Part shown: positions 3 to 30,919 of the stretch, piece by piece
Position numbering within the stretch: the first letter of the stretch is position 1
How the letters are laid out: every line of letters begins with the position of its first letter
DNA from: a virus
Direction: 5' to 3' (one strand)
DNA: 34,363 nt
IMG/VR virus record: IMGVR_UViG_3300025138_000161
Location: 1 to 34,363 of that record
The notes under the pieces: model-generated
The model's input: only the letters and a program-made list of their open reading frames with translations
Database searches by the model: none
What the model was told of the DNA's origin: nothing
Made by a program: the position numbers and the translations under genes

Positions 3-1391
3 CCTACTGGTAGCGCGGTAGAGGTTATGACGTTTACTCAGACAGAGATCAACGTGCCAATTGATGGGACTATTACGTCTGCTAAGTTGTCTGGTGCTTT
101 GACTACCCCCAGTGACTTGACGGTTACAGGTGGGATTACAGCTACCACAGCAGATAATACTGACACCCTTTCACTTATCTCTACAGATGCAGATGCAAGT
201 GCTGGCCCAAACCTTAGAATGTATAGAAATTCTGCAAGCCCAGCAGATGCAGATGTTTTAGGAGTTTTAGAATTTGAAGGACGCAATGATAATTCTCAGG
301 ATGTGGTCTACGCAGCTATTAAGGCAAAAGCTGCCGATGTAAGCGATGGAAGTGAAGATTCTTCTATCTTTATCAACTCTATGGTGGCAGGGACACTACA
401 AAACAGAATTACAATTCTTCCAACTGAGGCAGTCATCAATGAAGGTAGTCAAGACCTAGACTTCCGCGTTGAGTCTGATAACAGCACACACGCTTTGTTT
501 GTGCAGGGTTCTGATGGCAACGTGGGTATTGGGGAAAGCGACCCTGATAGCTCTCTAACTGTAAAAGGAGCATCACATACAAACTTCCAAGTGAAATCAA
601 ACAGTGAAAGCACAAAAGCCTTTATTCAAACAGTGCAAGATAGTGATATTCGTATTGGGTCTAGTACTAATCATCCTGTTTCGTTTTACCAGAATGGAAC
701 ACAACGTATGCGCTTGTCGGGGGGCAACCTATTAGTAAATACCAGTTCTTTTAGCGCGTTAGGTACGCTAGTCATTAAGCAATTATCTGACACACAAGGA
801 CTTGCGCTAATAGACGATAGCTCAACAAATACGTTCTTCATGCAAAATTTAGGTTCTGAGGCAAGAATTTCTCATAATGATACCTCTCCTATGACTTTTC
901 TCACGAACAGCACAGAACGCATGCGAATTTCCGCAGAGGGCTATGTCACAACCCCTTATCAGCCTGCGTTCAAAGCAGGGCGCACTACTAACTACACTCC
1001 AAGCCATAACACTGCAATTGTTTTCAATGATGTTTCAAATGTTCACCATTTCAACATCGGAGGGCATTACAGCACTTCTAGCGGACGTTTTACTTGCCCA
1101 GTTGCGGGTCGTTATTTCTTCCACACTGTTGTTATCTATGGTCCAAGTCTTTCTGAAGGGCAAAACATGGCTGATGCTTTTAGAATTCTAAAAAACGGGG
1201 CGCTAACCTCTTACTCGCATCGTCGGGCAGAGTATGTAAATGGGACAACTGGTAACGCCGGTTATTTTGTAGATCATGCGACTGTCGTGCTTAATTGCGC
1301 TGCAAATCAATATGTCGAAGTTAACTCCCAAGCATTTCCTATCCACGGAAACACACACTACACATATTTCACTGGTTATTTAATCGGATAA
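3..1391 (+). CDS. Tail fibre protein 1, C1q-like C-terminus (5' partial)
   Basis: Host-recognition fibre. The first ATG is at 27, but the frame stays open to the window edge and reads P-T-G-S-A-V-E-V before it, typical of fibre N-terminal regions; GAGG is only 2 nt before that ATG. The gene therefore probably starts upstream of the window. The middle holds the Ser/Asn/Gly-rich repeats common in marine phage fibres, including two copies of an 'ERMRxS/QRMRLSGGNLLV' motif. From about residue 310 of the visible part the sequence resembles a C1q/TNF-like jelly-roll: G-R-F-T-C-P-V-A-G-R-Y-F-F, then an 'FxGYLIG' ending. I infer a trimeric receptor-binding tip. The next gene begins 11 nt later. Confidence 0.8.
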   Translation, partial: PTGSAVEVMTFTQTEINVPIDGTITSAKLSGALTTPSDLTVTGGITATTADNTDTLSLISTDADASAGPNLRMYRNSASPADADVLGVLEFEGRNDNSQDVVYAAIKAKAADVSDGSEDSSIFINSMVAGTLQNRITILPTEAVINEGSQDLDFRVESDNSTHALFVQGSDGNVGIGESDPDSSLTVKGASHTNFQVKSNSESTKAFIQTVQDSDIRIGSSTNHPVSFYQNGTQRMRLSGGNLLVNTSSFSALGTLVIKQLSDTQGLALIDDSSTNTFFMQNLGSEARISHNDTSPMTFLTNSTERMRISAEGYVTTPYQPAFKAGRTTNYTPSHNTAIVFNDVSNVHHFNIGGHYSTSSGRFTCPVAGRYFFHTVVIYGPSLSEGQNMADAFRILKNGALTSYSHRRAEYVNGTTGNAGYFVDHATVVLNCAANQYVEVNSQAFPIHGNTHYTYFTGYLIG

Positions 1392-1402
1392 AAGGAACAG
1401 AA

Positions 1403-1675
1403 ATGCCAACAATTACTGTAGAACTTACAGACCACCAATTGAAAGGGTTAGAGTATTCTTGCAATACGCCTCAAGATTTCGCGGACAACGCATTACACAA
1501 TGAAGCTCGTATTTCAAATGATGAAATCGTCCAGATGTACACAACCCGTGCGTTAGATGAAGGCGTTGCTATTCCGGCAACCCGTGAACTAATCGTAGCT
1601 GATGCTTTTACTAGAGGCTGGGCAAAGTCAGCCGCAGAGCGTAACGCCGAAGCTGAAGCAGCACTACCGGAGTAA
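1403..1675 (+). CDS. Small fibre-partner protein A (90 aa)
   Basis: Conserved phage hypothetical; I do not know its biochemical role. It begins M-P-T-I-T-V-E-L-T-D-H-Q and is predicted helical and acidic, with an Ala/Glu-rich tail ending in A-L-P-E. It lies 11 nt after fibre 1 and 4 nt before fibre 2. Its last codons, CCG GAG TAA, contain the GGAG that serves as ribosome-binding site for fibre 2, so the two genes are probably translationally coupled. Its place between fibres suggests an assembly helper for one of them, but no chaperone motif is recognised. A GGAAC upstream of 1403 fits the start. Confidence 0.75.
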   Translation: MPTITVELTDHQLKGLEYSCNTPQDFADNALHNEARISNDEIVQMYTTRALDEGVAIPATRELIVADAFTRGWAKSAAERNAEAEAALPE

Positions 1676-1679
1676 TTAG

Positions 1680-2798
1680 ATGGCACTAACAAAAGTCTCC
1701 AGAGGTTTGCTGTCCACTGGCATTGTTGACAACTCAAACGCTACTGCGATCACCCTCAACGCTGACGAGTCGGCTACTTTTGCTGGCGCGATTGCAGTTA
1801 CTGGCACAGCTACTGCTTCAGAAATGACAGTAGCAGACACAGATGACATAAGGCTTCGCTTTTTAAACGGAACTACATTCAAGGCTGGTCTTCAGGTAGT
1901 AACATCCACGGGTGACATGATTGCTGGGTCTGCGGTAGATGACTTAGCAATACGCGCTCAAACAAATATGCTATTTGCTACTGGTGGCAACACAGAACGC
2001 ATGCGCTTGTCAGGCGGCAACCTGTTGGTGGGTACTACGTCTAACAGCGTATACAACGATGCGTCTGGTACAGGCATAGCCTTAAATGCAGGGCAGATTC
2101 AAATAGCAGGAACAGGAACACCGCTATATGCTAATCGTCAGGGTTCTGATGGTGACATAATAGACTTCCGCAAAGATGGCTCAACCGTAGGTAGAATTGG
2201 TGTTGACTACGGCACTGAGTTTTATATGGGCGGTGGAGGCGGTGGTTTCTATATAAACTCTGCCAAAATTAGACCAACAACAGGCGGTGATGCTGGTACA
2301 TTAGTTGATAACACACTCGACTTCGGCTCATCTGCTCATCGCTTCAAAGACCTCTACCTATCAGGCGGCGTATACCTTGGCGGGACAGGTGCGGCTAACA
2401 AATTGAGTGACGTAGAAACTGGCAATTGGACTCCAACGGTGAGTGTTGGGACGGCAACACTGTATCTAAATCAGTGGTATGTGAAAGTTGGAAGTTTAGT
2501 CACTTGTTATTTCTATATATATAATCTTACTCAAAGTACAGGTACTGCTTCGGTTGTTATTAATGGTTTACCTTTTCCAAAGGCGGTAAATCACGAAAGT
2601 TATTTTTCTGTCTCTTACGGCGGTACTCCGTCTCTCCCATCAAACGTAACCGGAGTATTTGGTAGGGTAGGACAAAATGGCACGAATAGCATAGGTCTGG
2701 AAATCCATAGAAATGCAGCAACAAGTACTGTTATGACCTACGCGCAGAGTAGCGGTAGTCATTTTGCAGCAACTTTCAGCTACCGAACGTCAGCTTAA
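1680..2798 (+). CDS. Tail fibre protein 2
   Basis: A 372-residue fibre or spike subunit. The N-terminus (M-A-L-T then S-I/G-I-V-D-N, T-A-I-T, D-E-S-A-T-F-A-G) is closely related to fibre 3, giving a shared N-terminal module of about 40 residues. The middle carries the T-E-R-M-R-L-S-G-G-N-L-L-V-G motif also found in fibre 1, then Gly-rich segments. From about residue 240, 'DVETGNWTPTV' opens a C-terminal domain of the type often found at the ends of phage fibres and tailspikes. The C-terminus differs completely from fibres 1 and 3, as expected if each binds a different receptor. The ribosome-binding site GGAG lies inside the stop region of the preceding gene. Confidence 0.82.
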   Translation: MALTKVSRGLLSTGIVDNSNATAITLNADESATFAGAIAVTGTATASEMTVADTDDIRLRFLNGTTFKAGLQVVTSTGDMIAGSAVDDLAIRAQTNMLFATGGNTERMRLSGGNLLVGTTSNSVYNDASGTGIALNAGQIQIAGTGTPLYANRQGSDGDIIDFRKDGSTVGRIGVDYGTEFYMGGGGGGFYINSAKIRPTTGGDAGTLVDNTLDFGSSAHRFKDLYLSGGVYLGGTGAANKLSDVETGNWTPTVSVGTATLYLNQWYVKVGSLVTCYFYIYNLTQSTGTASVVINGLPFPKAVNHESYFSVSYGGTPSLPSNVTGVFGRVGQNGTNSIGLEIHRNAATSTVMTYAQSSGSHFAATFSYRTSA

Positions 2799-2853
2799 CA
2801 ACATTACGTCTAGTGGAATCTAGGCTGGAAAACCCAACTAAAGGAAAATTAAA

Positions 2854-3117
2854 ATGGCTCTTTCAGAAACAACAGTAGAAGACAAAATTGAAGTAGTAGA
2901 TATGGGCGGCTGGAAAGCCATCCAAGTGCGAACTGCTACGGTAATTAGCAAAGATGACGTAGAACTCAGCAGATCTTTCCATCGCCATGTCGTGATACCA
3001 AACGACGATTGGGCTGGTGAATCCACAGAGGTTCAGGCTATGTGCAACACATTCCACACCACAGAAGCTATTGCTGCATACAATGCTGCACAAGCGGCTA
3101 ATGCTTTACCGGAGTAA
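2854..3117 (+). CDS. Small fibre-partner protein B (87 aa)
   Basis: Conserved phage hypothetical without known function. It starts M-A-L-S-E-T-T-V and contains an 'IQVRTATVISKDDVELSRSF' stretch followed by H-R-H-V-V-I-P, a pattern I associate with proteins beside fibre genes in marine phages. It ends A-N-A-L-P-E like partner A. An AAAGGAAAA site precedes the ATG. Its stop codon is 3 nt before fibre 3, and the GGAG in its last codons is the likely ribosome-binding site for that gene. It is unrelated in sequence to partner A outside the C-terminal tag, so the partner seems to change with its fibre. Confidence 0.75.
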   Translation: MALSETTVEDKIEVVDMGGWKAIQVRTATVISKDDVELSRSFHRHVVIPNDDWAGESTEVQAMCNTFHTTEAIAAYNAAQAANALPE

Positions 3118-3120
3118 AAT

Positions 3121-4467
3121 ATGGCACTAACAGAAATACCCAGCGAGCTGTCAAGTACTCCAAGCATTGTCGATAACGGCAACGCTACGGCGATCACTAT
3201 CGGTTCAGACGAGTCGGCTACGTTTGCTGGTAATATTTTACATGCAGGCGATCTAACACTAGACGCTGCTGGCGATATTACTCTTGATGCTGATGGGCAA
3301 GATATAAGATTAAAAGATGCAGGCACCGAATGGGGTAGATTCACCCACACTGGTCATTTTGGAATACAAAATCCAGTCAGTGATGCAGACATACAGTTCA
3401 TTGGAAACGATGGCGGCTCAACAATCACAGCCTTAACCCTTGATATGTCAGCGGCGGGTGCGGCTACTTTTAATTCTAGTGTTACAGCAACGGCTTTGAA
3501 TCTTAATACCAGTGGAACCTCATCTTTCTCAATTATTAACGGGGGAACAAACGCAATAGCAATCAAAGCTGCTGCGGGTGATGAACTTTACATAGGCGCT
3601 AACAACACTTATGCGTTAAGGCTGCTGAATGACGGCACGAACAATGTCGTAATGGACAACGGTGGCGGCTTTCTCGCCGGTGAACTTTTTATACATTCTA
3701 ATAGAATATCTTCGGGGTATAACGCTGACTCAGAAGATGCAGACATTTGGATAAACTATCAGGGGTATAACGCAGGCGCTACACGCTTTCGTGATTTCCG
3801 CGTGGGCAACGGCAAGCAAGAACAGGCACTCATGGTTGATGGTTCGTCGAGAAACATGGGTATCGGAAGAAATGCAGCCGCAAACGCGAGGCTCTCGATT
3901 TCTGGTGTAGATAGCGGTACCAATAATTATGCTCTAGAGGTTTGCAACAACGCCTTAAATACTAAATTTATAGTTCGTAATGATGGTGAATCCAGCTTTT
4001 ATAGCTCAAGCAACGCACTGTCTTTTAGGCTAACAGAGGCTGGACGTAAATATACCCAGATGTATAACAGTACCGTATCGGAGTACTTTAACTCCAGTGG
4101 GTATTCCACTATGTTCACGACAAGATTCTCTATGGTTATGTATGGAAATCAAGCATATGTGCTCACTTTTGGTGGTATGAGCAACGGGGCGGGTCATATA
4201 AAAGCATTTGGGTCGCACTGGACAAGTAGCTATGCAGTTGCCAGAGAGAGTTATGTTTACACAGATGCGTACACAGGTATTAGTGAAGCTAATCAATATA
4301 ATCTCACTAGTACTAATTCGGGTTCCTTCACTTTTACACGCGCAAGTAGTCCGGCAAACAACTCACCCCTTGTTATTACTAAGACTCAGGGCAGCTACGT
4401 TGGTGGATTTGTAGCTATTATTGAGATAACAAGCCATTGGCCATTAGAACTAACAAGTGTAGCGTAA
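3121..4467 (+). CDS. Tail fibre protein 3
   Basis: A 448-residue fibre subunit. The N-terminal 40 residues match fibre 2 in protein and largely in DNA (M-A-L-T, S-I-V-D-N, N-A-T-A-I-T, D-E-S-A-T-F-A-G). The middle has Asp/Ala/Gly-rich short repeats such as L-D-A-A-G-D-I-T-L-D-A-D-G. The last ~160 residues, rich in Tyr, Ser and Phe, form a C-terminal domain I do not recognise, presumably receptor- or glycan-binding. It is preceded by partner B and followed by a Phage_tail_APC-like chaperone. Confidence 0.82.
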   Translation: MALTEIPSELSSTPSIVDNGNATAITIGSDESATFAGNILHAGDLTLDAAGDITLDADGQDIRLKDAGTEWGRFTHTGHFGIQNPVSDADIQFIGNDGGSTITALTLDMSAAGAATFNSSVTATALNLNTSGTSSFSIINGGTNAIAIKAAAGDELYIGANNTYALRLLNDGTNNVVMDNGGGFLAGELFIHSNRISSGYNADSEDADIWINYQGYNAGATRFRDFRVGNGKQEQALMVDGSSRNMGIGRNAAANARLSISGVDSGTNNYALEVCNNALNTKFIVRNDGESSFYSSSNALSFRLTEAGRKYTQMYNSTVSEYFNSSGYSTMFTTRFSMVMYGNQAYVLTFGGMSNGAGHIKAFGSHWTSSYAVARESYVYTDAYTGISEANQYNLTSTNSGSFTFTRASSPANNSPLVITKTQGSYVGGFVAIIEITSHWPLELTSVA

Positions 4468-4480
4468 TAGGAATAAATTA

Positions 4481-4858
4481 ATGAGATATATAGTATTTGA
4501 AAACAACTCTCTAAAATTTTTTACTTCAGTAGATCCTACCAGTTCTGATTCGGCAATTATTTTAGGAGAAAATTCTGTTGTTAAAGAAGTTGAAGATGAC
4601 TTCACAATAGAATCAAAAATCGTAACACTTGTGAATGATCAAGTAGTATCAGTAGATGAAGATCTAAATGCTCTGAGGTCAGCCAATGCTTTGCCCATGT
4701 TAAGAGCTGAAAGAGATAATCGACTCAAAGAAACCGACATTTGGGGGTTACAGGATTTTCCTACAACCTCTGAACAGGTGGCATACAGACAGGCTCTAAG
4801 AGATATAACAGTCACATACTCGTCTTTAGATGATGTTGTTTGGCCCACGAAACCGTAG
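4481..4858 (+). CDS. Tail fibre assembly chaperone (Phage_tail_APC-like)
   Basis: 125 residues. The C-terminal half carries the family signature: L-R-A-E-R-D-N-R-L-K-E-T-D-I-W, then P-T-T-S-E-Q-V-A-Y-R-Q-A-L-R-D-I-T, ending W-P-T-K-P. This is the pattern of the small tail assembly chaperone family (Pfam Phage_tail_APC) often encoded just after a fibre gene. The N-terminal half is acidic and variable, presumably the part specific to the fibre. It starts 13 nt after fibre 3 with GGAA upstream. A second member with a better-conserved signature lies at 8880, so each receptor-binding protein appears to have its own helper. Confidence 0.8.
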   Translation: MRYIVFENNSLKFFTSVDPTSSDSAIILGENSVVKEVEDDFTIESKIVTLVNDQVVSVDEDLNALRSANALPMLRAERDNRLKETDIWGLQDFPTTSEQVAYRQALRDITVTYSSLDDVVWPTKP

Positions 4859-4863
4859 CAGCA

Positions 4864-4915
4864 CCGGAGTAATTAGATGGCACTAACAGATGCTTTGCCG
4901 GTTGGATCTGAGTAG
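4864..4915 (+). pseudogene. Fossil of a fibre/partner cassette junction
   Basis: These bases repeat, without their genes, the sequence that joins partner A to fibre 2. The 25 nt at 4864-4888 (CCGGAG, TAATTAG, ATGGCACTAACA) are identical to 1667-1691. It reads as the end of a partner gene (..PE-stop), then a fibre start (M-A-L-T), which runs straight into D-A-L-P-V-G-S-E-stop, again the end of a partner-type gene. A complete fibre plus partner appears to have been deleted by recombination, leaving only the ends. The 12-codon ORF at 4877-4915 keeps a good ribosome-binding site, so it could still be translated and coupled to the holin 2 nt downstream. Confidence 0.75.
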
Positions 4916-4917
4916 CT

Positions 4918-5295
4918 ATGTCCATAGTCAGTCAGCTAATCGGTCCAGTTTCCGGTCTCTTAGATAAGTTCATCCCTGACGCTGATCAGAAGGCTGCGCT
5001 TGCCCATGAAATCTCGACTATGTCCGAAAAACATTTTCAGGAAATTCAGTTGCAGCAGATCGAAGTGTTGAAGCTTGATGCTAAGGGTAATTGGTTCCAA
5101 TCGTCGTGGAGACCTTTAGCAGGTTATTGCTGCGTGATGGGGTTATTCGTGAATTTCTTAGTCTCGCCCATCGCTGCCGGTTTCGGCGTTGAGATTCCTC
5201 AAGCGGATGCTGGGGTAATGATGCCTCTACTATTGGGCATGCTCGGATTATCTGGTGGCAGGACTTACGAAAGATCTAAAGGAGTTAGCAAGTGA
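4918..5295 (+). CDS. Holin, 3TM / gene-transfer-agent type
   Basis: 125-residue inner-membrane protein, probably forming the lysis pore. An N-terminal amphipathic, charged helical region (residues 1-60) is followed by 'WFQSSWRPLAGY', the W-R-P motif typical of 3TM holins (GTA_holin_3TM family). Hydrophobic segments lie at about 67-90 and 98-112, with a basic C-terminal tail (R-T-Y-E-R-S-K). Length and order fit the family. Its TGA overlaps the GTG start of the next gene by 4 nt. No endolysin is recognised nearby, so the lysis enzyme is either outside the window or of an unrecognised type. Confidence 0.75.
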   Translation: MSIVSQLIGPVSGLLDKFIPDADQKAALAHEISTMSEKHFQEIQLQQIEVLKLDAKGNWFQSSWRPLAGYCCVMGLFVNFLVSPIAAGFGVEIPQADAGVMMPLLLGMLGLSGGRTYERSKGVSK

Positions 5296-6938
5296 CTGGG
5301 TTTAAGATTCAAACTTTTGGTGGCAAAGCGCCAAAAATATATTCGCGATTACTGCCTAACGAAATGAGCACGGTAGCCACGAATACCAGATTAGATTCTG
5401 GTCGGTTAGAACCTTGGAAAGGAAATGCTTCTGCGTCCATAAGCCCAGTTGCATCTTATTCAATCTCTGCCGCAACAAAAACATTATTTAGGTATAGCTC
5501 CAGTATTTGGATTGGAAGCAATGAAGACATAAATATTGTTCGATCACCTATAGCCGAAGATGTTCACGAAAGGCTGTATGTCTCGGGGATAGGCGGTGCA
5601 TCAGGCTTTCCAAGAATGACTACTGCTGCCGTGGTTGGAAACGGAACATACTACAAGCTAGGGCTTCCTAAGCCTGAAGCTTTCGATGCGGTAACTTTAG
5701 GATCTACGTCTGTCTCTGCCACAGAATCTCCCGTTGCTAGAGCGTATATTTTTACATATGTTTCTTATTATGGTGAGGAGGGTCAGCCAAATAACGCTGT
5801 TGTATCTCAAATCGTAAATGTCCATTCTGATCAGCCGGTAACTATTAATTTCCCAGTGAACCCAACTGGCGCTTACAACCTTTTAAAGAAGCGTTTATAC
5901 AGAAGTGATAGTAGCGGCGTCTTTAGATTCGTCGCAGATGTAAGTATTAATACCGATACAGTTGTCGATAGCACAGCGGAAGCAAACCTTGGTGAAGAAA
6001 TTCCAACTTCAACTTTTGCCGCACCACCTGATGACGTTTCAGCCGATCACCCTGACGGTCCATTGCAAGGGTTGGTATCCATGCCAAATGGAATTTTGGC
6101 AGGGTTTTCAGGGCAGACCGTTGCATTCTCAGAGGCTTTTCAACCTCACGCTTTTCCGACAGAGCACCGCTTAACAATGAAGAGCGATGTTGTTGCTTTG
6201 GCTCCGCTCAATACCGGGCTGCTAGTTTTGACAAAAGAAAAGCCAGCCATGATTCAAGGCTTAGACCCTAGAGCCATGTCAATGATAGAAGTTGATTCTA
6301 CTCTTTCGTGTGTTTCTAAAAGGTCAGTGGTCGATATGGGTGAGAGCGTACTGTACTCAAGCCCGGACGGTTTAGTAATGGCTACTGATAACGGTATGAA
6401 ACTTATAACTGAAAGTGTCCTGAGTCGCGACCAGTGGCAAGCATTGAACCCTGAAACCATTTTAGGCTTTCAATATGAGGGGCATTACATTGGGTTTTAT
6501 AATGACGGTTCGGAAAGTAAGGGGTTTATCTTTGATCCGCGAGGCGGCAAAAACAGTTACACAAAGCTAGACTTCTATGCAACCGCAGGGTTCAACGACC
6601 TTGAAAATGATGAGTTGTACTTGGTTGTCGGGGGTGCAGTAGTAAAGTTTGCTCAGGGAAGTAGTCTTAACTACACATGGCGTACTAAAGAGTTCTATAC
6701 GCAAAGACCCGTAAACCCCGGAGTGGCAAAAGTCAATTGCGACTCTTATTCTCCAAATCCAACGATGAAGTTGTTCGCGGACGGTGTGTTAAAGCACACA
6801 CAAACTGTGACAAGCGGTGCGATCTTTAGATTGCCTAGTGGCTACAAAGCTAACGAGTTTGAAATAGAACTTAGCGGCTCAGTGCCTATCAATGAAATAT
6901 GCTTATACGAAGAAGCGGGAGAGATTGGTGGGCAGTAA
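5292..6938 (+). CDS. Large virion structural protein
   Basis: 548 residues starting at a GTG that overlaps the holin stop (GTGA) and is preceded by AAAGGAG 7 nt upstream. It opens with F-G-G-K-A-P-K, L-L-P-N-E-M-S, A-T-N-T-R-L-D-S-G-R-L-E-P, the start of a phage virion protein family common in marine and soil podoviruses and siphoviruses. The central part (about 260-400) is beta-rich with 'GQTVAFSE', 'HAFPTEHRL' and 'SPDGLV', suggesting a beta-propeller-like or tail-tube-associated fold. It probably belongs to the tail or head-tail interface, but the exact role is unknown. It lies between the holin and the tail-tip gene in one tight operon. Confidence 0.65.
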   Translation: MTGFKIQTFGGKAPKIYSRLLPNEMSTVATNTRLDSGRLEPWKGNASASISPVASYSISAATKTLFRYSSSIWIGSNEDINIVRSPIAEDVHERLYVSGIGGASGFPRMTTAAVVGNGTYYKLGLPKPEAFDAVTLGSTSVSATESPVARAYIFTYVSYYGEEGQPNNAVVSQIVNVHSDQPVTINFPVNPTGAYNLLKKRLYRSDSSGVFRFVADVSINTDTVVDSTAEANLGEEIPTSTFAAPPDDVSADHPDGPLQGLVSMPNGILAGFSGQTVAFSEAFQPHAFPTEHRLTMKSDVVALAPLNTGLLVLTKEKPAMIQGLDPRAMSMIEVDSTLSCVSKRSVVDMGESVLYSSPDGLVMATDNGMKLITESVLSRDQWQALNPETILGFQYEGHYIGFYNDGSESKGFIFDPRGGKNSYTKLDFYATAGFNDLENDELYLVVGGAVVKFAQGSSLNYTWRTKEFYTQRPVNPGVAKVNCDSYSPNPTMKLFADGVLKHTQTVTSGAIFRLPSGYKANEFEIELSGSVPINEICLYEEAGEIGGQ

Positions 6939-8883
6939 CAATACCAATTTAAGTGTTCCTGTTGGTTGGTCAAATCAAGACCGCAGATTTGGCGAGTCTA
7001 TAAAGCAGAACTTGGATGTATTGCAGGGTCAGCGCGGAGACAAGTTAGATCGTGCTGTCACCTTTAGAGATTTATTAGATGCAGGAATTGTTCAGCTTGC
7101 GTCAGGGATTACGAACTTTGACGGACTGTCTTCCAGCATAGCTATCGTTAACGACTTCGCTGATTTAGCAATTCCGCCAGCGCCTACAAACCTTCAGGCA
7201 GACGGTGCCTTCCGAAATATAATCTTAACTTGGGATTTACGGTTATATAAAGGACACAGCGCAGTTCAGGTGTGGCGGCACACATCAGACGTAATATCGT
7301 CAGCAACGATGGTCGCCCAAGTCTCAGGCTTTACCGGCGTATACGCCGACCCTGTAGGCTCTGGGAAAACCTTTTACTACTGGGTTAGGGCAGTCAACAA
7401 CAACGACGTTACTGGTCCATATAACAGCAGCACAGGCGTACAAGGCGTTACTGCGCCAGATGTAAATTTTTTATTAGCAACTCTTACCAACGCGGTTACA
7501 TCGAGTGAGCTTGCTAGTTCTTTGTCTACTCCGATTGCTCTGATTCCTTCACACACTTCAGGGATCGCGGCTCTAGATGCCTTTACCGGATACAGCAGTT
7601 CGTATACCGGCGACAGTCTTGTTACTCGATTAGGCGCTGTGGAGAACAGTGCGGCTAATGGCGTTAGTTCAGCCCAGTTCAATTCTGAAGTCACGACAAG
7701 AGCGAATGCTGATTCAGCTTTGTCGCAGTCTATTACTACACTCACCTCGACTGTAGCTGGAAACACAGCGGGAATCTCAAGCGAAGCTACTACTCGCGCT
7801 AATGCTGATTCAGCTTTATCTTCATCTATTACTACCCTGTCATCTACAGTTAACAGCAACACAAGTGCAATCTCGACAGAGCAAACTACAAGAGCTAACG
7901 AAGACAGTGCGCTTAGTTCGGCGATCAGCACGGTAAGCTCTACCGTTGCAGGTAATACCAGTTCAATTAGCACTCAAGCAACTTCCATTAACGGGTTGTC
8001 TGGTCAATACACAGTAAAGATTGATCTTAACGGCGCTGTTGCAGGATACGGCTTGGCTAGTACTACGACATCCGCAGGTAACATTGTTAGCGAGTTTGTG
8101 GTCAATGCTGATCGCTTTGCAATTATGCGAGGTGGATCTAACACCACAGCCGCTTCTGTACCGTTTATAGTCCAGGCTTCAGCAACCACAATTGGTGGGG
8201 TAGCAGTTCCTGCTGGCGTCTACATGACCGATGCATTTATTCGTAATGGGTCAATCATAAACGCGAAGATTGCTAACGCTTCGATTGACGATGCAAAAAT
8301 CGCAAATCTTAATGCTGGCAAAATCAATGCGGGAACGATTAACACAAGCCGATTAAATATTGACGGATCGACTTTAACCTCTGTTGGTGGGGTGTTACAG
8401 ATTGCAAACTTAGCTGTGACTAATGCAAAGATTGGAAACCTTGCAGTAGATAACGCAAAGATTGCAAACCTTTCAGTCTCAACATTGAAGATTCAAAACC
8501 AAGCGGTCACGTTTCCGTCTGCCGTCGTTACGAACTCAACTTTGACAGGGACTCACAATAATAGTTTTTCTACCTACGTGACTGTTCAGACTTTGACCGC
8601 CACGTTCAGTGGTGCGCCTGTCATGATTTCGGGTTCTTTTTCTGTCAGATCATATAACGATCAAGCACTAATGAGATACCGTTTGCGGAGAGGCAGTACT
8701 GTTCTGTTCACTTCGCAAACGAAAGCGGTCAGACCTTCGCCTGACAACTTTGTCATCCCATTTCATTTTTTAGATACCAACACATCGGTCGGCAGTAGAA
8801 CCTATACGCTTCAAGTAAACGTCGGAGATGAATACGCTTATTACTCAGATCGCACAATTCAGACACTGGAGTGTAAAAAGTGA
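6928..8883 (+). CDS. Tail tip / host-specificity protein J-like
   Basis: I choose GTG 6928 (GGGAGAG 4 nt upstream), overlapping the preceding gene by 11 nt; an ATG at 6892 would overlap by 47 nt. The 651-residue product has, in order, an N-terminal helical part (Q-D-R-R-F-G-E-S), a fibronectin-III-like domain (P-P-A-P-T-N-L-Q to about residue 175), three tandem ~34-residue repeats of T-T-R-A-N-A-D-S-A-L-S (about 250-350; likely trimeric coiled coil), a DUF1983-like segment (Y-T-V-K-I-D-L-N-G-A-V-A-G-Y-G-L), A-K-I-A-N/I-G-N-L pentapeptide-type repeats (about 430-530), and a C-terminal beta domain. This matches the C-terminal half of lambda gpJ-like attachment proteins. A cognate chaperone follows at once. 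Confidence 0.78.
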   Translation: MGSNNTNLSVPVGWSNQDRRFGESIKQNLDVLQGQRGDKLDRAVTFRDLLDAGIVQLASGITNFDGLSSSIAIVNDFADLAIPPAPTNLQADGAFRNIILTWDLRLYKGHSAVQVWRHTSDVISSATMVAQVSGFTGVYADPVGSGKTFYYWVRAVNNNDVTGPYNSSTGVQGVTAPDVNFLLATLTNAVTSSELASSLSTPIALIPSHTSGIAALDAFTGYSSSYTGDSLVTRLGAVENSAANGVSSAQFNSEVTTRANADSALSQSITTLTSTVAGNTAGISSEATTRANADSALSSSITTLSSTVNSNTSAISTEQTTRANEDSALSSAISTVSSTVAGNTSSISTQATSINGLSGQYTVKIDLNGAVAGYGLASTTTSAGNIVSEFVVNADRFAIMRGGSNTTAASVPFIVQASATTIGGVAVPAGVYMTDAFIRNGSIINAKIANASIDDAKIANLNAGKINAGTINTSRLNIDGSTLTSVGGVLQIANLAVTNAKIGNLAVDNAKIANLSVSTLKIQNQAVTFPSAVVTNSTLTGTHNNSFSTYVTVQTLTATFSGAPVMISGSFSVRSYNDQALMRYRLRRGSTVLFTSQTKAVRPSPDNFVIPFHFLDTNTSVGSRTYTLQVNVGDEYAYYSDRTIQTLECKK

Positions 8884-9272
8884 AAGAGCGCGTAATTGTT
8901 GAGACAGACACAGGCAAAATTATGTCAACAGGTGTTTGTTTGAGCGAAGACTTTAACGTCGTACCTGACGGCTGCACTGCGTATGAAAATACTGGCGACT
9001 GGGGTGACTCTACGCATCAATTAGTAGACGGTGAGTTTGTCGAGATCACACAGACGGACGCAGAAGCTTTAGCTGAGATGTGGATGGTAGTTCGTATGCG
9101 TCGAGACTATCTATTAATGAGAAGCGACTGGACACAAACTACGGACTCACCATTAACTGGAGACCAAAGAACGGCTTGGCAGTTGTACCGGCAGGATTTA
9201 CGGGACATAACTGAAAACTTTGCCCACATAATAACATTACAGGATGTAACCTTTCCGACTGCACCAAGTTAA
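8880..9272 (+). CDS. Tail assembly chaperone (Phage_tail_APC-like), second copy
   Basis: 130 residues; GTG start overlaps the tip gene's TGA (GTGA), so the two are co-translated. The C-terminal signature is strong: R-R-D-Y-L-L-M-R-S-D-W-T-Q, then L-T-G-D-Q-R-T-A-W-Q-L-Y-R-Q-D-L-R-D-I-T and an F-P-T-A-P-S ending. The N-terminal half is an acidic beta-rich domain of the kind seen before this signature in tail-fibre assembly proteins. It shares the C-terminal pattern with the protein at 4481 but not its N-terminus. The likely client is the J-like protein. Confidence 0.8.
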   Translation: MKERVIVETDTGKIMSTGVCLSEDFNVVPDGCTAYENTGDWGDSTHQLVDGEFVEITQTDAEALAEMWMVVRMRRDYLLMRSDWTQTTDSPLTGDQRTAWQLYRQDLRDITENFAHIITLQDVTFPTAPS

Positions 9273-22900: not shown

Positions 22901-23833
22901 CTACTGTTCTTTTCCAATAATATTTTCTAAATTACCGGCAGCTTCAATAAGCTCTGGTGCCAAAATGTGCGAATATCTTTCTATGGATTTCGCTGAGTTC
23001 CAGCCAGCTAATTTTCTTACCTGTCTGTCATCAGTTCCTGCCCTTCGATGCCAAGTCGCAAAGGTATGCCTCAGTCCATGCACTCTCGTACCTTTGGGTA
23101 ACCCTGCTCGTTCAACAGCGTTCCTCCAAGTTCGGTTGCACACTTCTTTAAGAGGCTGACCGTTTAACTTCACGTCTCCAGACTTCTGCACAAAAACATA
23201 TTCTAACTTCTTATTGAGGTACGGATATCTTTCTAAAAGTGCTTTGTTAAACTTTCTTCGGTAGGAAATTATATCCCTACACTTGCTTATCAAAGGAACC
23301 TCTATAGGACTTCCATTCTTCATTTCATTTCCATCGATGCGGATAAATTCTCCACACTTAGAAACCTGACTCCACCTCAAGTTCGTTACATTACTTTTTC
23401 TCAACCCGGTGAGGACACAAATTGAAGCGATGTCTCTCCTTAAAGGGTCAAGCTCTTCCAGTAACCGCTCAAACTCTTCATATTCTAAAAAGTCTGTTTT
23501 CTCCTCTTCGGCAACACATGTTGCCTCCGGGAAATACTGGATCTGCTTTAACTCTTTTCGCGCATGATTCATCATGGCGTTGTAGTAAACAACATATGTA
23601 TTATAGGTTGCTCCAGAAATGACTCGGTCACTTCTTGGATCTACTCGCTTCTTTTGCCTCCTAAAGAAAAGCCTTACATCCTTATCCGATATATCGGTTA
23701 TCAGCTTATCTTCACCCCAAATCGCAACCATTTCACCTAGTCGCCTATGGGCTGTTTCGGATTTATCTTTGCCGGTTTTAGTCGGCTCATCCAAGTAGTC
23801 TTCTACTACTTCATTTAGTGTCATCGTCCTCAT
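22901..23833 (-). CDS. int: Tyrosine-family site-specific integrase
   Basis: 310 residues from ATG 23833, preferred over a TTG at 23875: AAGGAAG precedes it and it overlaps the stop of a coding micro-ORF (ATGA). The N-terminal core-binding domain (about 1-110) is followed by a catalytic domain with R145 in 'LTGLRKSN', the probable beta-hairpin Lys172, H252-x-x-R255 in 'HGLRHTFATWH', W278 in 'LAGWNSAKS' and the nucleophile Y287 in 'ERYSH'. It would catalyse integration at the tRNA-Gly site and, with an excisionase, excision. The gene points at attP, whose core lies about 175 bp from its stop. Confidence 0.93.
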   Translation of the reverse strand: MRTMTLNEVVEDYLDEPTKTGKDKSETAHRRLGEMVAIWGEDKLITDISDKDVRLFFRRQKKRVDPRSDRVISGATYNTYVVYYNAMMNHARKELKQIQYFPEATCVAEEEKTDFLEYEEFERLLEELDPLRRDIASICVLTGLRKSNVTNLRWSQVSKCGEFIRIDGNEMKNGSPIEVPLISKCRDIISYRRKFNKALLERYPYLNKKLEYVFVQKSGDVKLNGQPLKEVCNRTWRNAVERAGLPKGTRVHGLRHTFATWHRRAGTDDRQVRKLAGWNSAKSIERYSHILAPELIEAAGNLENIIGKEQ

Positions 23834-23973
23834 AATACTTCCTTGTATATGAGCAAGCGTCTCGACGCTGCCCAAAATGTATCAAAGTTGATCCGTTCTC
23901 GCCACCAGTGGATCAGGCTGGCTATGTTCGGCACGTACGTGAGGACGCGCCGGGGCTTCTCGGGGTGAGCCAA
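23830..23973 (-). CDS. 47-residue micro-ORF coupled to integrase (possible excisionase)
   Basis: An open frame from TTG 23973 to a TGA that overlaps the integrase ATG by 4 nt (ATGA). It fills the only gap between two genes and has protein-like composition: 'AHPEKPRRVLTYVPNIASLI' then H-W-W-R-E-R-I and F-W-A-A-S-R-R-L-L. It is basic and tryptophan-rich. Size, charge and coupling suit an excisionase or recombination-directionality factor, but no family is recognised and the start codon is weak (no clear ribosome-binding site), so the exact N-terminus is uncertain. Confidence 0.55.
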   Translation of the reverse strand: MAHPEKPRRVLTYVPNIASLIHWWRERINFDTFWAASRRLLIYKEVL

Positions 23974-23975
23974 GA

Positions 23976-24269
23976 TTAGTTGATTGCTGGGGCTTCCTCT
24001 TGCGCCGGTACTATCGCCTCCTCATTTTGAGACAAGGCTTCAGCCGTTTGGGCTGTAAAGTTCTCTAGACCCATAGCCGCAAGGGCGGATATGTTCTTGA
24101 TATTTGTGACCACAAGCACGGCGCTTGCAAGAGCACTGACCGCTTTTGACAGGTCGTTCACAGTGTTTAGCTGCTGTACCTGCTGCTCGGTTAGCGCGTC
24201 AACAAAAAAGTTATTGCCACCGATAGTGACAATCTGTCGTTCTTGGTTGGTTAGTTCTGTCTCGCTCAT
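23976..24269 (-). CDS. Hypothetical protein with short N-terminal beta motif (97 aa)
   Basis: 97 residues, overlapping the stop of the upstream gene by 4 nt. It has 'RQIVTIGGNNFFVDALTEQQ' followed by V-Q-Q-L-N, a pattern similar to small phage proteins of the DUF6447 kind (T-I-x-G-x-x-Y-x-x-D-x-L). An Ala-rich helix follows (about 42-70) and an acidic, Pro/Glu-rich tail. Function unknown. Ends 2 nt before the TTG of the integrase-coupled micro-ORF, so these genes share a transcript. Confidence 0.65.
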   Translation of the reverse strand: MSETELTNQERQIVTIGGNNFFVDALTEQQVQQLNTVNDLSKAVSALASAVLVVTNIKNISALAAMGLENFTAQTAEALSQNEEAIVPAQEEAPAIN

Positions 24270-24655
24270 TTCTTCCTCGCGTCGTGTCTTAAAATTAAAT
24301 AATCTCGGGGGGCTTCAATGCCAAATCTGGCTTGGGGGATTTCTCTTTTGGGAACTAGGTCACCCCTCATGCAGTAGTGGCAATAAGTGGGCTGATCAGC
24401 TACATGGCTCTGTACCCCGCTAAGGGTCAGAACCACCTTGTCATTCAGGCTGTGAGTCTCTCCGACTAATATGACCTTCTCGGTAATACCGTCTGAGTCC
24501 TCAATATTAACGACAACTCTTTGCTCGTTATCGAAGCCATCAATTACTTTTCTGACCCAGACCCGGTGATCAAAAGTTCCCTCAAGATTGGTAGGGTCCA
24601 AATCGAAACCGCCATAAAGGCGGGTATCGACGGCTCTTGTAATTTTCAATGCCAT
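24266..24655 (-). CDS. CsrA-like protein with a cysteine-bearing insertion
   Basis: 129 residues; AGGA lies upstream of ATG 24655. The C-terminal half looks like a CsrA/RsmA fold in two pieces: 'VILVGETHSLNDKVVLTLSG' corresponds to CsrA's VGETLMIGDEVTVTVLG, and 'ARFGIEAPRDYLILRHDA' to its VRIGVNAPKEVSVHREEI, including the RNA-contacting Arg (R44 in E. coli CsrA). Between them is an insertion with H-Y-C-x-Y/M-C. The N-terminal 55 residues are an extra domain. A CsrA-like protein would bind GGA motifs in mRNA leaders and repress translation. The match is by eye only. Confidence 0.5.
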   Translation of the reverse strand: MALKITRAVDTRLYGGFDLDPTNLEGTFDHRVWVRKVIDGFDNEQRVVVNIEDSDGITEKVILVGETHSLNDKVVLTLSGVQSHVADQPTYCHYCMRGDLVPKREIPQARFGIEAPRDYLILRHDARKK

Positions 24656-24664
24656 GCGGCTTTC

Positions 24665-24943
24665 CTAAAAAGGAGAATCATCTTCAAACACGTCAGCGAA
24701 CGCATCTTTGTTTCCGCCACCAGAATCGGACTGACCTTTCGGCTTCCAGTTATCCACTTCGCTGTACCACTTACCGGACTTAGCAACCTTCACGTCTAGA
24801 TTGATCCACTCTCCCTCTTTTTGCTGGAGCCACTTACCTAGCTCTACACGCTTTATGGAGATCTTTGCTTTCACAAAGTCAGGAGCGCCCTCCCTTGGAG
24901 CGTTTACAAATAAACCGTCTACAAATTCTTTTTCATCCGACAT
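24665..24943 (-). CDS. Putative ssDNA-binding protein with acidic C-terminal tip
   Basis: 92 residues, overlapping the exonuclease gene by 11 nt. The N-terminal 70 residues look beta-rich ('FVDGLFVNAPREGAPDFVKA', 'WINLDVKVAKSGKWYSEVDN'), consistent with an OB-like fold. A Gly/Ser/Lys linker leads to an acidic tail ending D-D-S-P-F, the same kind of tip that bacterial SSB (..DDDIPF) and T7 gp2.5-like proteins use to bind partner proteins. Encoded directly after an exonuclease and an annealing protein, it fits a recombination/replication SSB. No sequence family is recognised, so the role is inferred. Confidence 0.55.
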   Translation of the reverse strand: MSDEKEFVDGLFVNAPREGAPDFVKAKISIKRVELGKWLQQKEGEWINLDVKVAKSGKWYSEVDNWKPKGQSDSGGGNKDAFADVFEDDSPF

Positions 24944-25982
24944 TTTTCTTATCTTCCTTATGGGGTTTTACAGACACCTGAGTTGTGCCTGTTGTTTTTC
25001 TGAAGCTCTCCATATCGGAGCCGTTCTCCAAAACTTTCTCGACCCCACCCAAGAACTCAAAAGCTGCCTTGAAATCTAGAGGTGGTATTTTTTTAATTAC
25101 TTGCACCATTATTGATCCGTTAGTAACGGTTGTTCCGTGCCGAGCAGAGACACTTTTCTTTAGGGTTTCACTCTCGGCTTTCAATTCAGAAATGGCGTCG
25201 ATATCATCCGAGGATCTGTGTTCGAGGACGGCGATTCTTTTTGCGATCACGTCGAGTCGGTCTAATTCTTCATCGTCGTTGACGTAAATTGTTGCGTCTT
25301 TGAGAGGCTTTAAGTGATGCTCTCTTAAAACCGGGTCTTGAAATTCATTGTGTATTTGATTGTGCCAAGCCTGCCAAAGGTCTATGCGCCTCACCTTCCC
25401 TGCTCTTGGCTGCGGCAAAAACTGACCCGAAACCTTCTCCTCAAGGAAACCAGTTCTGCGCTCGACTCGCTCGATCTTAAACACGTTATCGTTTATGTAG
25501 CAGATGAAATCCATCCACTCGATGTCGCATACCTCCATCACGGCGTAGCACTGCCACAAATACATTTTCTTGTTTGCGTCGTAAACGCTGTAGGGAGTCT
25601 TGACGTAGAAAGGACATTTAGCTTCAGCGCCGCCGATCAGCCCGGTCAACCCATCAGGAGACCCGCGCAGCCAACTGTATTCTGGATGCTGAACACTCCC
25701 GGTAACGTAAAGCTGATAGCCCTTCTCTCGCTCAAGGCAAGCGAGCGCTGCTGCCTCATTGTCGTTGCCGTGTTGAATCGCTGGGACCATTACGAACTCG
25801 CTTGTAGCTTTAGCCAGCGCTCTGACTTGCTCGCGCACTATCTTTTCTGGAGACGTGTAAGGGTGCTCCCTTTCCCAAGCCAAGCAGGTTGAGCAATTAA
25901 TCGATTCTGCTCTGATAGCTGCCCAAAGCTCTCCGCCTTGAGGGGCTGGTATGTCTTCCATCTCAACCGCACGAACGCTCAC
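24933..25982 (-). CDS. YqaJ-type exonuclease (lambda exonuclease family)
   Basis: 349 residues; GTG start at 25982 overlaps the TGA of the upstream annealing protein gene (GTGA). The PD-(D/E)XK catalytic pattern of YqaJ/lambda-exo nucleases is clear: E76 in 'QHGNDNEAAAL', D110 in 'WLRGSPDGL', E120-A-K122 in 'GGAEAKCPF', then 'YLWQCYAVMEV' with the conserved Gln. Residues 250-275 form a coiled coil, unlike minimal family members. It degrades the 5' strand of double-stranded ends to give 3' overhangs for the annealing protein. It also contains C30-x2-C33 near the N-terminus. Confidence 0.88.
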   Translation of the reverse strand: MSVRAVEMEDIPAPQGGELWAAIRAESINCSTCLAWEREHPYTSPEKIVREQVRALAKATSEFVMVPAIQHGNDNEAAALACLEREKGYQLYVTGSVQHPEYSWLRGSPDGLTGLIGGAEAKCPFYVKTPYSVYDANKKMYLWQCYAVMEVCDIEWMDFICYINDNVFKIERVERRTGFLEEKVSGQFLPQPRAGKVRRIDLWQAWHNQIHNEFQDPVLREHHLKPLKDATIYVNDDEELDRLDVIAKRIAVLEHRSSDDIDAISELKAESETLKKSVSARHGTTVTNGSIMVQVIKKIPPLDFKAAFEFLGGVEKVLENGSDMESFRKTTGTTQVSVKPHKEDKKNVG

Positions 25983-26644
25983 GCTTGTGCCTTTTTAGCA
26001 GCCTGTGCCTTAGCTTTTAGCGCTTTAAGGTATTGATCTAAGCGGTTGTCGTTGCTGTCTTTAATGCCAAGGTTTTTTAAGGAGTTCTCAAACTTTCTGT
26101 AAAGCTTTTTGGCTTCCCCTCCATCAACAGCTTTCATCATCGTTGCCTGATTGTCGCTCCAAATATCGTCCGCTGTTTTAGTTGCAGCAGTTGGCGTTTG
26201 ATCATCAGTGGATGCTTGAGTAGCCACCGCTTCAGAGTCGGTCTCACCATCAAACTCCATTCCAGACCATAGATCTTGGAAGAGACCGAATTCAGCTAAT
26301 GCCTTGCAGCGGCAGCGTTGTTTCGCTGTGTTCACATCGTCCGCGTTAGGGTTTTGGATTGGTTTATTTCTGGAGCCATAAACGGGGAGGGTAGTAAGCG
26401 TTTCATGCTCACCAATTGTGATCTTACAGCGAACCTCTGCGGTGCTGTCTGGATAGTAGAAAGCGGGTCTATCGTCTGCGTTTAGTAAGAACTCCCAGCG
26501 ATACTCGGGGAATTTAGACATCATGACGGCGTGTGTCGACATCCAGTCGACGTAAGTAATTTCTCCAAACTTTTTAGTTGAGAAATCTTTACTGCTCACT
26601 TTAGATAGGGTTGCCCAGATTTGGGCGCGAGATAACTTTTCCAT
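25979..26644 (-). CDS. Sak3-like single-strand annealing protein (DUF1071)
   Basis: 221 residues; AAGGAG lies 8 nt upstream of ATG 26644. The first 125 residues match the DUF1071/Sak3 pattern: 'FGEITYVDWMSTHAVMMSKF', an aromatic W-E-F segment, 'TTLPVYGSRNKPIQNPNADD', and 'VNTAKQRCRCKALAEFGLF'. The C-terminal third is Lys/Ala-rich and variable. It would bind ssDNA made by the neighbouring exonuclease and anneal it, giving recombination-dependent replication and repair. It is the first gene of the leftward recombination operon. Confidence 0.8.
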   Translation of the reverse strand: MEKLSRAQIWATLSKVSSKDFSTKKFGEITYVDWMSTHAVMMSKFPEYRWEFLLNADDRPAFYYPDSTAEVRCKITIGEHETLTTLPVYGSRNKPIQNPNADDVNTAKQRCRCKALAEFGLFQDLWSGMEFDGETDSEAVATQASTDDQTPTAATKTADDIWSDNQATMMKAVDGGEAKKLYRKFENSLKNLGIKDSNDNRLDQYLKALKAKAQAAKKAQA

Positions 26645-26661
26645 GTAAATACTCCTTAGTA

Positions 26662-26697
26662 CAGATGAATTAAATCATCTGCTAATGAGTTTTACAA
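26662..26697 (-). promoter_or_regulatory. Promoter of the recombination operon with operator over the -10 box
   Basis: Reading leftward: -35 TTGTAA (26697-26692), 17-nt spacer, -10 TTTAAT (26674-26669). The -10 hexamer is exactly the 6-nt spacer of a perfect 7+7 inverted repeat, CAGATGA and TCATCTG (26662-26681). A dimeric regulator on this site would block RNA polymerase. The first gene (annealing protein) starts 18 nt downstream of the repeat. Confidence 0.65.
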
Positions 26698-26710
26698 CCT
26701 TAAAATGTGA

Positions 26711-26747
26711 TTTAGATCTAAAAGTTAAACTTCTTAACCTTTAGATC
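26711..26747. repeat. Cluster of short palindromes upstream of the recombination promoter
   Basis: TTTAGATCTAAA (26711-26722) is a perfect 12-bp palindrome. GTTAA-5-TTAAC (26724-26738) is an inverted repeat. TTTAGATC recurs at 26740-26747. Several overlapping sites within 40 bp suggest a second regulator binding upstream of the -35 box. Confidence 0.5.
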
Positions 26748-26753
26748 GCGCTT

Positions 26754-27203
26754 TCATACGTTGCACTTACATCGAGGAAGAAAGAACTGTCTTACCTGCT
26801 CAAGAAAAACAGTATCGTTCCAACCCTCCGCAAGGCACAAATAATATCTGTCTTGGTAGATGGATTTATAAACGACTGCCTCTGCCTTTCCGGTTTCCTT
26901 GATTTGCTGAATCTGTCGCAGATTTATCTCCACAGCTTCAGGCAGTAAATCCTTAAATATGCGGATATTTTTCCCAACCAAAGTCCACTTGTCATCGCGG
27001 TTGGTTTTTAACTCAGACGTGTGAGCTTCTAAGTTATCGCAGGCCCATAAAATTGCGCCCGTGTATGAAACCTGCGCCCTAGTCACGAATGAGGCGGAAG
27101 ACGTATGACGTGGCAGTTCAAGAGAGGGAACCTCTTGATTGACGATTGTCCCATTCTTGTTCGCCCAATCATTGTACGTTTCTATAAGTTCGACGTTATC
27201 CAT
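26754..27203 (-). CDS. Unknown protein co-transcribed with the repressor (149 aa)
   Basis: Begins immediately after the repressor stop (TGA-ATG, no gap), so it should be made in the lysogen. There are no membrane segments; mixed alpha/beta composition with 'KWTLVGKNIRIFKDLLPEAV' and a C-terminal F-F-L-P-R-C-K-C-N-V with two cysteines. Not recognised. Genes placed directly behind a prophage repressor often provide superinfection exclusion, immunity or host-fitness functions, or assist the repressor; nothing in the sequence singles one out. Confidence 0.68.
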   Translation of the reverse strand: MDNVELIETYNDWANKNGTIVNQEVPSLELPRHTSSASFVTRAQVSYTGAILWACDNLEAHTSELKTNRDDKWTLVGKNIRIFKDLLPEAVEINLRQIQQIKETGKAEAVVYKSIYQDRYYLCLAEGWNDTVFLEQVRQFFLPRCKCNV

Positions 27204-27629
27204 TCACTGTTCCCCTATTGACTGGTCGCGGTTATTCCCAATAACTTCCGCCAGTAATTTTTTATTATTTTTATAAATTTCAGAATCGTTCGCTATCAAC
27301 TCGATAATGAACATGAATTGCTTCGCAGATAGCGCCCCGTGATCGTCCTCGAACTGCTTGGCTTTTAGGACGTGCTCTTTCCAGCTATCGTCAGTTGCTG
27401 GTGGCTTCGACTCTAACGTGACCCACTCTTCGATAGTGAAGCCATATTCGTTGGCAAATCTAAGCGCGACTTCTAAGTCCTTACTTAGTGATCCGCCCAA
27501 CCATCCTTGGACAACTGCATTCGATACCGTTAATTTTTTAGCTATTGCGCTTGCTCTTCCGTAGTCTGCGACACCTTGTCGCGCTAGCACCAGGTTAAGC
27601 CATGCAGCTCTGCTGTCTCGGCTAACCAT
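27204..27629 (-). CDS. Phage repressor-like HTH regulator (CI-type by position)
   Basis: 141 residues; AAGGAG lies 6 nt before ATG 27629. Residues about 22-50 contain a helix-turn-helix: 'RASAIAKKLTVSNAVVQGWL', then an L-E-V-A-L-R-F-A-N-E-Y-G-F-T-I-E-E-W dimerisation-type stretch typical of XRE/CI-like regulators. There is no peptidase (S24) domain, so it would not self-cleave in a RecA-dependent way. Placed divergently from the replication operon, it is the best candidate for the lysogeny repressor. Confidence 0.78.
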   Translation of the reverse strand: MVSRDSRAAWLNLVLARQGVADYGRASAIAKKLTVSNAVVQGWLGGSLSKDLEVALRFANEYGFTIEEWVTLESKPPATDDSWKEHVLKAKQFEDDHGALSAKQFMFIIELIANDSEIYKNNKKLLAEVIGNNRDQSIGEQ

Positions 27630-27863
27630 TTAACACTCCTTGTAATGATTAAAGTTAAATTCCCTTCCCTGTTTCTCATTAACACACATTTAAATGACTT
27701 TTAGTAGCTGTGAATTCGTACAGCACATTTGAACATGCAAAACGCAGCCATTTTTCGAGCCAAAAAGTATAAAAAACATATCAAAGTAAATATATTCATC
27801 CATAGGTATTGAAAGATTGATCTTCATGTGTAGTATTAACTGACGCATGGAGGCGACGCATTA
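27630..27863. promoter_or_regulatory. Divergent control region between repressor and replication operons
   Basis: 234 bases without a gene. It holds a palindrome CATTTAAATG (27687-27696), an inverted repeat GCTGT-8-ACAGC (27707-27724), and AAAGTTAAA (27651-27659), also found at 26721-26729 beside the other leftward promoter. An AT-rich stretch (27750-27800) follows. This is where repressor operators are expected. The leftward promoter is not clear. Confidence 0.55.
27809..27836 (+). promoter_or_regulatory. Sigma70-like promoter of the replication operon
   Basis: TTGAAA (27809-27814), 16-nt spacer, TAGTAT (27831-27836), then a ~20-nt leader with GGAGG (27849-27853), 10 nt before the ATG of the replication initiator at 27864. 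Confidence 0.6.
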
Positions 27864-30403: not shown

Positions 30404-30738
30404 ATCAGCAAGAAAATTTTGCTCAAGCTTTGCGTGATTGTGGTGCTCAGGTCGGAAAGGCTGAAAGAGACCTAGCAAAAGCAGAAGCTCAAGAGAAACG
30501 AACCTACGCGAGTTTAATGATGACAGCGCAGGCCAACCATAATTGCAAAACGGCGGCAGCACAATCCACATGGGCAGACAACCAAGAGCAGATGGAACAG
30601 GCGAGACTAAACCGAGGACTCGCAAAAGGACTTCTAGCAGCAGCAAAAGCAAACCTTCTAGCAGCAGAAGTCGAATTCAAAACGTGGCAAACGCAGATGG
30701 CAACGACACGGTTCGAGAAGCGGATCTACGGAACCTGA
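30400..30738 (+). CDS. Coiled-coil protein, function unknown (112 aa)
   Basis: TTG start overlapping the TGA of the primase-helicase (TTGA), with AAGGA upstream. The product is almost all helix, rich in Ala, Gln, Glu and Lys ('GKAERDLAKAEAQEKRTYAS', 'ARLNRGLAKGLLAAAKANLL'), predicted coiled coil. No family recognised. Between replication genes it may be an accessory factor. Confidence 0.7.
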   Translation: MNQQENFAQALRDCGAQVGKAERDLAKAEAQEKRTYASLMMTAQANHNCKTAAAQSTWADNQEQMEQARLNRGLAKGLLAAAKANLLAAEVEFKTWQTQMATTRFEKRIYGT

Positions 30739-30740
30739 GC

Positions 30741-30884: not shown

Positions 30885-30919
30885 AATCTCACACCCCAAC
30901 CAAAGAGGAAAAGGCTTGG

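Follow-up and report, generated by a model that had tools for sequence, protein, structure and literature searches.

The window, that is the whole stretch of DNA analysed here, corresponds to the entirety of an IMG/VR virus record, linear and 34,363 bp long. The features on which the analysis bears are given below; the other loci with which the window was compared are designated L034, L084, etc.

3..1391, + strand: fibre 1, 3' part only, with a C-terminal C1q tip (Pfam C1q, 2.6e-11; frame open to base 3)
1403..1675, + strand: partner A, 90 aa, putative helper of the upstream C1q tip (homologue neighbours; predicted four-helix protein)
1667..1691, + strand: junction copy 1, made of the partner A end, a TTAG spacer and the fibre 2 start (exact repeat of 4864-4888)
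1680..2798, + strand: fibre 2, with the KVSRGLL start module (behind partner B in L034 and L084) and a T2 tip (T2 profile)
2808..2825, + strand: stem 1 of an intergenic RNA element (gtctag TGGAAT ctaggc), second helix not kept (covariation in relatives)
2854..3117, + strand: partner B, 87 aa, phrog_6228 (function unknown), putative helper of the upstream T2 tip (homologue neighbours)
3109..3132, + strand: junction copy 2, made of the partner B end, an AAT spacer and the fibre 3 start
3121..4467, + strand: fibre 3, with the EIPSELS start module (behind partner A in L034) and a tip without known relatives
4481..4858, + strand: tail assembly chaperone of fibre 3 (Phage_tail_APC, PF16778, 7.8e-13; phrog_4912)
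4857..4888, + strand: junction copy 3, made of a partner A-like end and ATGGCACTAACA (repeats 1660-1691 with 94% identity over 32 nt, 25 nt of which are exact)
4877..4915, + strand: 12-codon scar ORF, MALT/DALPVGSE (homology to L034 from 4891, to L203 from 4890)
4918..5295, + strand: holin, which closes the array (PF11351; phrog_3427)
24936..25982, - strand: RecE-like exonuclease (phrog_434, 2.3e-16)
25982..26644, - strand: Sak-like single-strand annealing protein (phrog_659, 1.2e-16)

The coordinates agree with the gene order given by the initial annotation: fibre 1, partner A, fibre 2, partner B, fibre 3 and the chaperone follow one another without interruption. Fibre 1 is the 3' part of a larger gene, whose homologue in L034 encodes 698 aa. 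Because it is truncated by the start of the contig and the record is linear, the array may reach further upstream. The product of 4481-4858 matches PF16778 at 48.5 bits, for a curated cut-off of 26.6. For partner A neither a Pfam match nor a credible PHROG match was obtained, while some members of the T2 tip class, represented here by fibre 2, match phrog_17970 (function unknown). Fibres 2 and 3 have a common N-terminal module, as had been described, with 67% identity over the first 41 columns; the C-termini of all three fibres differ, also in line with the description, and no relative of the fibre 3 tip was found in IMG/VR.

Positions 6892-9272 of the window carry a further fibre gene, of 663 aa, and behind it a further chaperone of APC type. 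In relatives fetched by their internal virion protein the fibre at this site ranges from ~590 to >1600 aa and the chaperone is retained. Positions 22904-31834 carry an integrase, a RecE-like exonuclease, a Sak-like annealing protein, a repressor-like gene, replication genes and a RusA resolvase. From this gene content the phage is probably temperate.

The partner-to-fibre junctions are indeed alike, CCGGAGTAA being closely followed by ATGGC at 1667, 3109 and 4864 of the 34 kb. This arrangement occurs three times in the window and in none of 100 shuffles, and the window has three CCGGAGTAA-ATGGCACTAACA junctions. The exact recurrence of the 25-mer 1667-1691 at 4864-4888 is likewise confirmed; it was not obtained in shuffles, and it extends to 32 nt at 94%. 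The junction copies are direct repeats, not inverted ones.

The last codons of the partners vary with the downstream gene. The tail is ALPE, with CCGGAGTAA, ahead of MALT fibres; ETP, with GGAGACACC, where it overlaps the next ATG; and ALP(V/A)GSE ahead of the holin. GGAG is retained in most of these tails although the flanking letters differ. Tails of A and B are more alike within a genome than between genomes (0.556 vs 0.474, p 0.025), a modest effect, while the 42 nt preceding the tails are not more alike within a genome than between genomes. It had been proposed that the end of the partner provides the ribosome site of the next fibre, and L034 bears this out: partner A' stops earlier in L034, yet CTACCGGAGTAA is kept, untranslated, past its stop, and thus acts as the leader of the next gene.

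Alignment of the locus across relatives, suggested at the outset as a check, revealed junction-bounded rearrangements in L034 and L084. Relatives of the window locus show REARRANGEMENT (L034 comparison); L033, which matches the window partially, does not reach the array. The order in L034 is a C1q fibre, A', a MALTEIPSELS fibre with a T2 tip, B', a MALTKVSRGLL fibre with an S74 tip, a scar and the holin. Compared with the window, both start modules have exchanged places and sit behind the opposite partners, the T2 tip being still with B. The KVSRGLL start module is behind partner B in L084 as well as in L034. Where the same start module lies behind different partners (window vs L034), identity amounts to 38-45% over the 40 nt to the left of CCGGAGTAA, as against 90-91% over the 100 nt that start at the fibre ATG. 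The pattern is reversed with the same partner (B) and different start modules, i.e. 97% on the left and 51% on the right. The break of homology between the window and L034 is located in the partner's last codons; homology between relatives begins or ends at a conserved short motif, as in motif-bounded exchange.

Inside the shaft of fibre 3, a segment of 210 nt (window 3457-3666) is 94% identical to L082:9539-9748, in an otherwise different phage. This suggests a recent exchange inside shafts too.

The repeat could alternatively be a duplicated ribosome-binding leader kept for translation, the rearrangements being illegitimate and filtered by selection and the junction having no role in recombination. 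The retention of GGAG within differing flanking letters and of the untranslated CTACCGGAGTAA of L034 would be expected in such a case, and the joint of the scar described below lacks long homology. However, the 25-mer covers the spacer and third-codon letters, which translation does not constrain, and for both start modules homology sets in at one and the same position, whichever of the two unrelated partners precedes them. We regard this explanation as possible but somewhat doubtful, and retain an exchange of units bounded by the junction.

Just upstream of the holin, the ORF of 12 codons (M-A-L-T-D-A-L-P-V-G-S-E) reported by the initial annotation is present at 4877-4915. It had been taken for the fossil of a lost cassette, and comparison with L203 strengthens this claim beyond its first form, the 3' half of the ORF being the tail of a lost partner B. 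In L203 a T2 fibre is followed by an intact partner B that ends in ANALPAGSE-stop, two bases before the holin. Since this intact tail adjoins the holin, MALT/DALPVGSE in the window joins the first four codons of a fibre to the end of a lost partner B. The homology of the window with L034 and L203 starts just past the repeat end at 4888. A complete unit, fibre plus partner B, is thus missing from the window before the holin. A chance ORF, also considered, is ruled out by the intact partner B of L203. Microhomology at the scar joint does not exceed 1-2 nt; the scar may stem from a deletion, perhaps an illegitimate one, or from the joining of an incoming array.

Other scars are found at the same place. 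In L034 and L084 the start of a DUF7936 gene is fused to ALPVGSE, and L204 has a shorter version, with the tail in another frame. The 5' end of the DUF7936 gene persists in the scars of L034, L084 and L204. This small gene (PF25590, function unknown) closes many arrays, after partner B or an S74 fibre (L042:6255-6545 and others).

In the window, L034 and L084 different starts are fused to one tail without a change of frame, and 2 nt separate the stop from the ATG of the holin, as would be the case if the 12-codon ORF were a maintained leader peptide coupling translation to the holin and not merely a fossil. We judge this unlikely in view of the other frame used in L204; moreover, the roles of scar and leader are compatible. 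The ORF is accordingly treated below as the trace of a lost unit.

The initial annotation had concluded that the locus gains and loses whole units through the junction repeat. Exchange bounded by the junction (L034, L084) and the fossil of a lost unit both support this conclusion, but the composition assigned to the unit, a partner plus the next fibre, is ruled out: partners track the upstream tip and precede many different genes. The pairing of each partner with the fibre past the junction must therefore be abandoned. The partner follows the tip upstream (C1q-A, T2-B) and only its last codons go with the next gene.

This association was surveyed by profile searches over about 190 loci. After dereplication by tip, C1q tips are followed by A in 54 cases and T2 tips by B in 46, without any A/B crossover, and none of the 42 S74 tips is followed by A or B. 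Considered from the partner side, the gene before partner A is a C1q fibre in 71 cases and an APC gene in 12, never T2 or S74. The gene before partner B has a T2 tip in 59 of the 64 cases with an upstream gene, and never a C1q or S74 tip; the five others are unclassified, some with T2-like ends. The T2 profile was seeded with tips upstream of B, and the independent tests are the loci fetched otherwise and the zero crossover: T2 is followed by B in 18/18 cases in loci not fetched with B, and C1q by A in 9/11 cases in loci not fetched with A. When the tips are clustered at 40% identity, 26 clusters are C1q-A, 37 are T2-B and none is mixed (p 3e-18). Among the C1q tips, counted after dereplication, about half are without A, mostly in multi-fibre loci of other phages. 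Five apparent exceptions, T2 tips followed by DUF7936, turned out to be artefacts of the ORF caller, partner B being present there.

The same association is observed in the cultured phages sampled, with B after a T2 tip in 14/15 cases and A after C1q in 3/3. The set with B comprises phages of Pelagibacter, Roseobacter, Prochlorococcus, Synechococcus and Methylophilales, and one spring genome; the exception is DSL-LC05, where B comes after a gene without T2 tip. In bacterial genomes, partner B was found in two MAG contigs only. The spacing between fibre and partner also depends on the pair, C1q-A gaps being mostly 9-25 nt and T2-B gaps mostly 46-70 nt. Two Roseobacter phages, CRP-804 (T2+B) and CRP-403 (C1q+A), have homologous flanking genes and a common fibre start of T7 type (68% over 173 aa); by these comparisons the pair represents a natural exchange of a tip together with its partner. 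Each partner, a small gene, comes immediately after its fibre, and this candidate helper tracks the C-terminal tip upon exchange, as in chaperone modules. The partner belongs to the tip of the upstream fibre, A with C1q and B with T2.

Partner A is predicted to fold into four helices (pLDDT 94.6) and partner B into three long strands and two helices (pLDDT 94.4). Compared with known fibre chaperones, they gave no Pfam match and no significant PDB fold or sequence match. A and B are best read as chaperones of fibre assembly, so far unrecognised and specific to a tip, with which they would move. They could instead be structural tip proteins, carried by the virion and binding the receptor as the gp38 adhesin does in some T-even phages. 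An adhesin borne by the tip would also lie directly downstream of the fibre and track the tip class, as A and B do, and some tail-fibre gp38 proteins are receptor-binding tips (PMC12892980). But the bodies of the partners are conserved, unlike receptor-binding parts (B is mostly 75-86% identical in many phages with different tips), and S74 tips, whose chaperone is in cis, have neither A nor B. A structural role thus appears rather improbable, and we keep to tip-specific chaperones.

The gap between the T2 fibre and partner B contains a covarying RNA pseudoknot in many loci (about 40, plus L048, L084 and L034; e.g. L048:5953-5984, L084:761-792 and, on the minus strand, L034:1679-1710). It has a 6-bp stem 1 and an NGGAYN loop that pairs with AGTCCA, and lies 16-23 nt ahead of the partner ATG. 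In an alignment of 18 sequences, each of the six pairs of stem 1 shows two-sided changes, 99% of cells are paired, and the covariation score is reached by 0/500 shuffles. The pairing of the loop with AGTCCA concerns 89% of cells, and this second helix rests mainly on conservation because the 18 sequences were picked by motif, with the loop, the AGTCC letters and a partial stem required. In the 5.4 Mb of strands that were scanned, 35 copies of the motif are present. Of these, 34 lie upstream of partner B (30 that were counted and 4 from duplicate loci). The remaining copy is in L043, after a T2 fibre without partner. In that locus the RNA element (7674-7705) is followed, with no partner B, by a terminator-like hairpin and a T run; L043 is possibly another case of lost partner.

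With a covariance model 44 copies are detected (E up to 0.05), almost all of which lie in the T2-B gap, and the intergenic RNA has no match in Rfam. The window retains stem 1 only, and a generic pseudoknot scan gave nothing in the window or in L203 because the second helix is missing. The element is absent from many T2-B gaps, including those of most cultured phages examined.

From all these data we think it quite probable that exchangeable fibre units are arrayed at this locus, bounded by leaders and with partners dictated by the tips, for which an agent of the RecE/Sak type is plausible. The carrier would be a marine phage with an integrase, in which the class of the C-terminal tip dictates the next small gene: A for C1q, B for T2, the APC chaperone for the tip of fibre 3, and neither A nor B for S74. 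Partners A and B would most likely help their own tip to fold and trimerise. The start modules common to the fibres would be interchangeable, each with its own leader ACCGGAGTAA, which would combine the ribosome site with the final codons and the stop of the partner located before it. As each start module brings its own leader, units could be swapped, reordered or lost from leader to leader without losing translation, and the remnant before the holin would be the scar of a lost unit, fibre plus partner B. The phage's own annealing recombination, of the RecE/Sak type, is a plausible agent of exchange; Rad52-like recombinases of temperate phages drive relaxed exchange (PMC3945230). The change of tips may also affect the host range, as the initial annotation had proposed.

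No invertase was found among the genes scanned, the integrase of the window being of the phrog_1/phrog_216 families, and no reverse transcriptase among the genes scanned, which are part of the ORFs of an incomplete contig. In phage Mu, the invertible fibre segment S-U / S'-U' is switched by a dedicated invertase acting on inverted repeats, and each alternative tip comes with a downstream assembly gene. The present array is similar in that each tip has its own putative assembly gene downstream, but its repeats are direct. In the adhesins of T-even type, short conserved motifs flank the exchanged receptor-binding part, within the adhesin. Short conserved motifs also serve as boundaries here; the boundary is, however, made of the helper end of one unit and the leader of the next fibre.

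Exchange of a fibre with its cognate chaperone is already known. The host-recognition module of Alteromonas phages V22, A5 and P24, a fibre and a DUF4376 chaperone, is common to unrelated phages (PMC10579305). As in this module, an adjacent fibre and its cognate chaperone, putative in the present case, travel jointly between phages of different morphology (PMC10579305). In contrast, neither A nor B has a match among the known chaperone families, the tips are C1q and T2, and several tandem units are present in one genome, with a common junction and scars at the boundaries. Fibre-assembly helpers of two other kinds are present in these same arrays, Phage_tail_APC (PF16778) downstream of the fibre and the S74 intramolecular chaperones (PF13884) inside the fibre; A and B resemble them as putative helpers but are unrelated to them by sequence. 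That C1q and fibre genes vary greatly among marine phages is also known (PMC3909814). The available parts of the reports on metaviromic islands of marine phages (PMC3909814) and on cryoconite phage pan-genomes (PMC7468147) place fibre and C1q genes among the most variable between co-existing phages, and contain no mention of helper genes, units or boundaries. A limited literature search returned no description of partners A/B, the tip code or the RNA element.

A broader proposal, which we advance tentatively and as little short of an even prospect, is that marine phages follow a fixed code between tip class and a dedicated, unrecognised folding helper (C1q-A, T2-B, S74 self-sufficient). No tip would cross the limits between podo-, sipho- and myophages unless accompanied by its helper; in the T2-B unit, the new pseudoknotted RNA would tune the expression of the helper.

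Anonymous small genes (A, without family, and B, phrog_6228) thus become testable as tip-specific helpers. The association provides a rule for the annotation of marine-phage fibres and indicates which small gene should be co-expressed with each tip; the natural limits of the units available for tip exchange are defined by it too. The RNA element constitutes a new family open to testing, and scars with known parents make the loss of units traceable between phages. The locus shows how phages of this kind can change their fibre tips while each tip keeps its probable folding partner.
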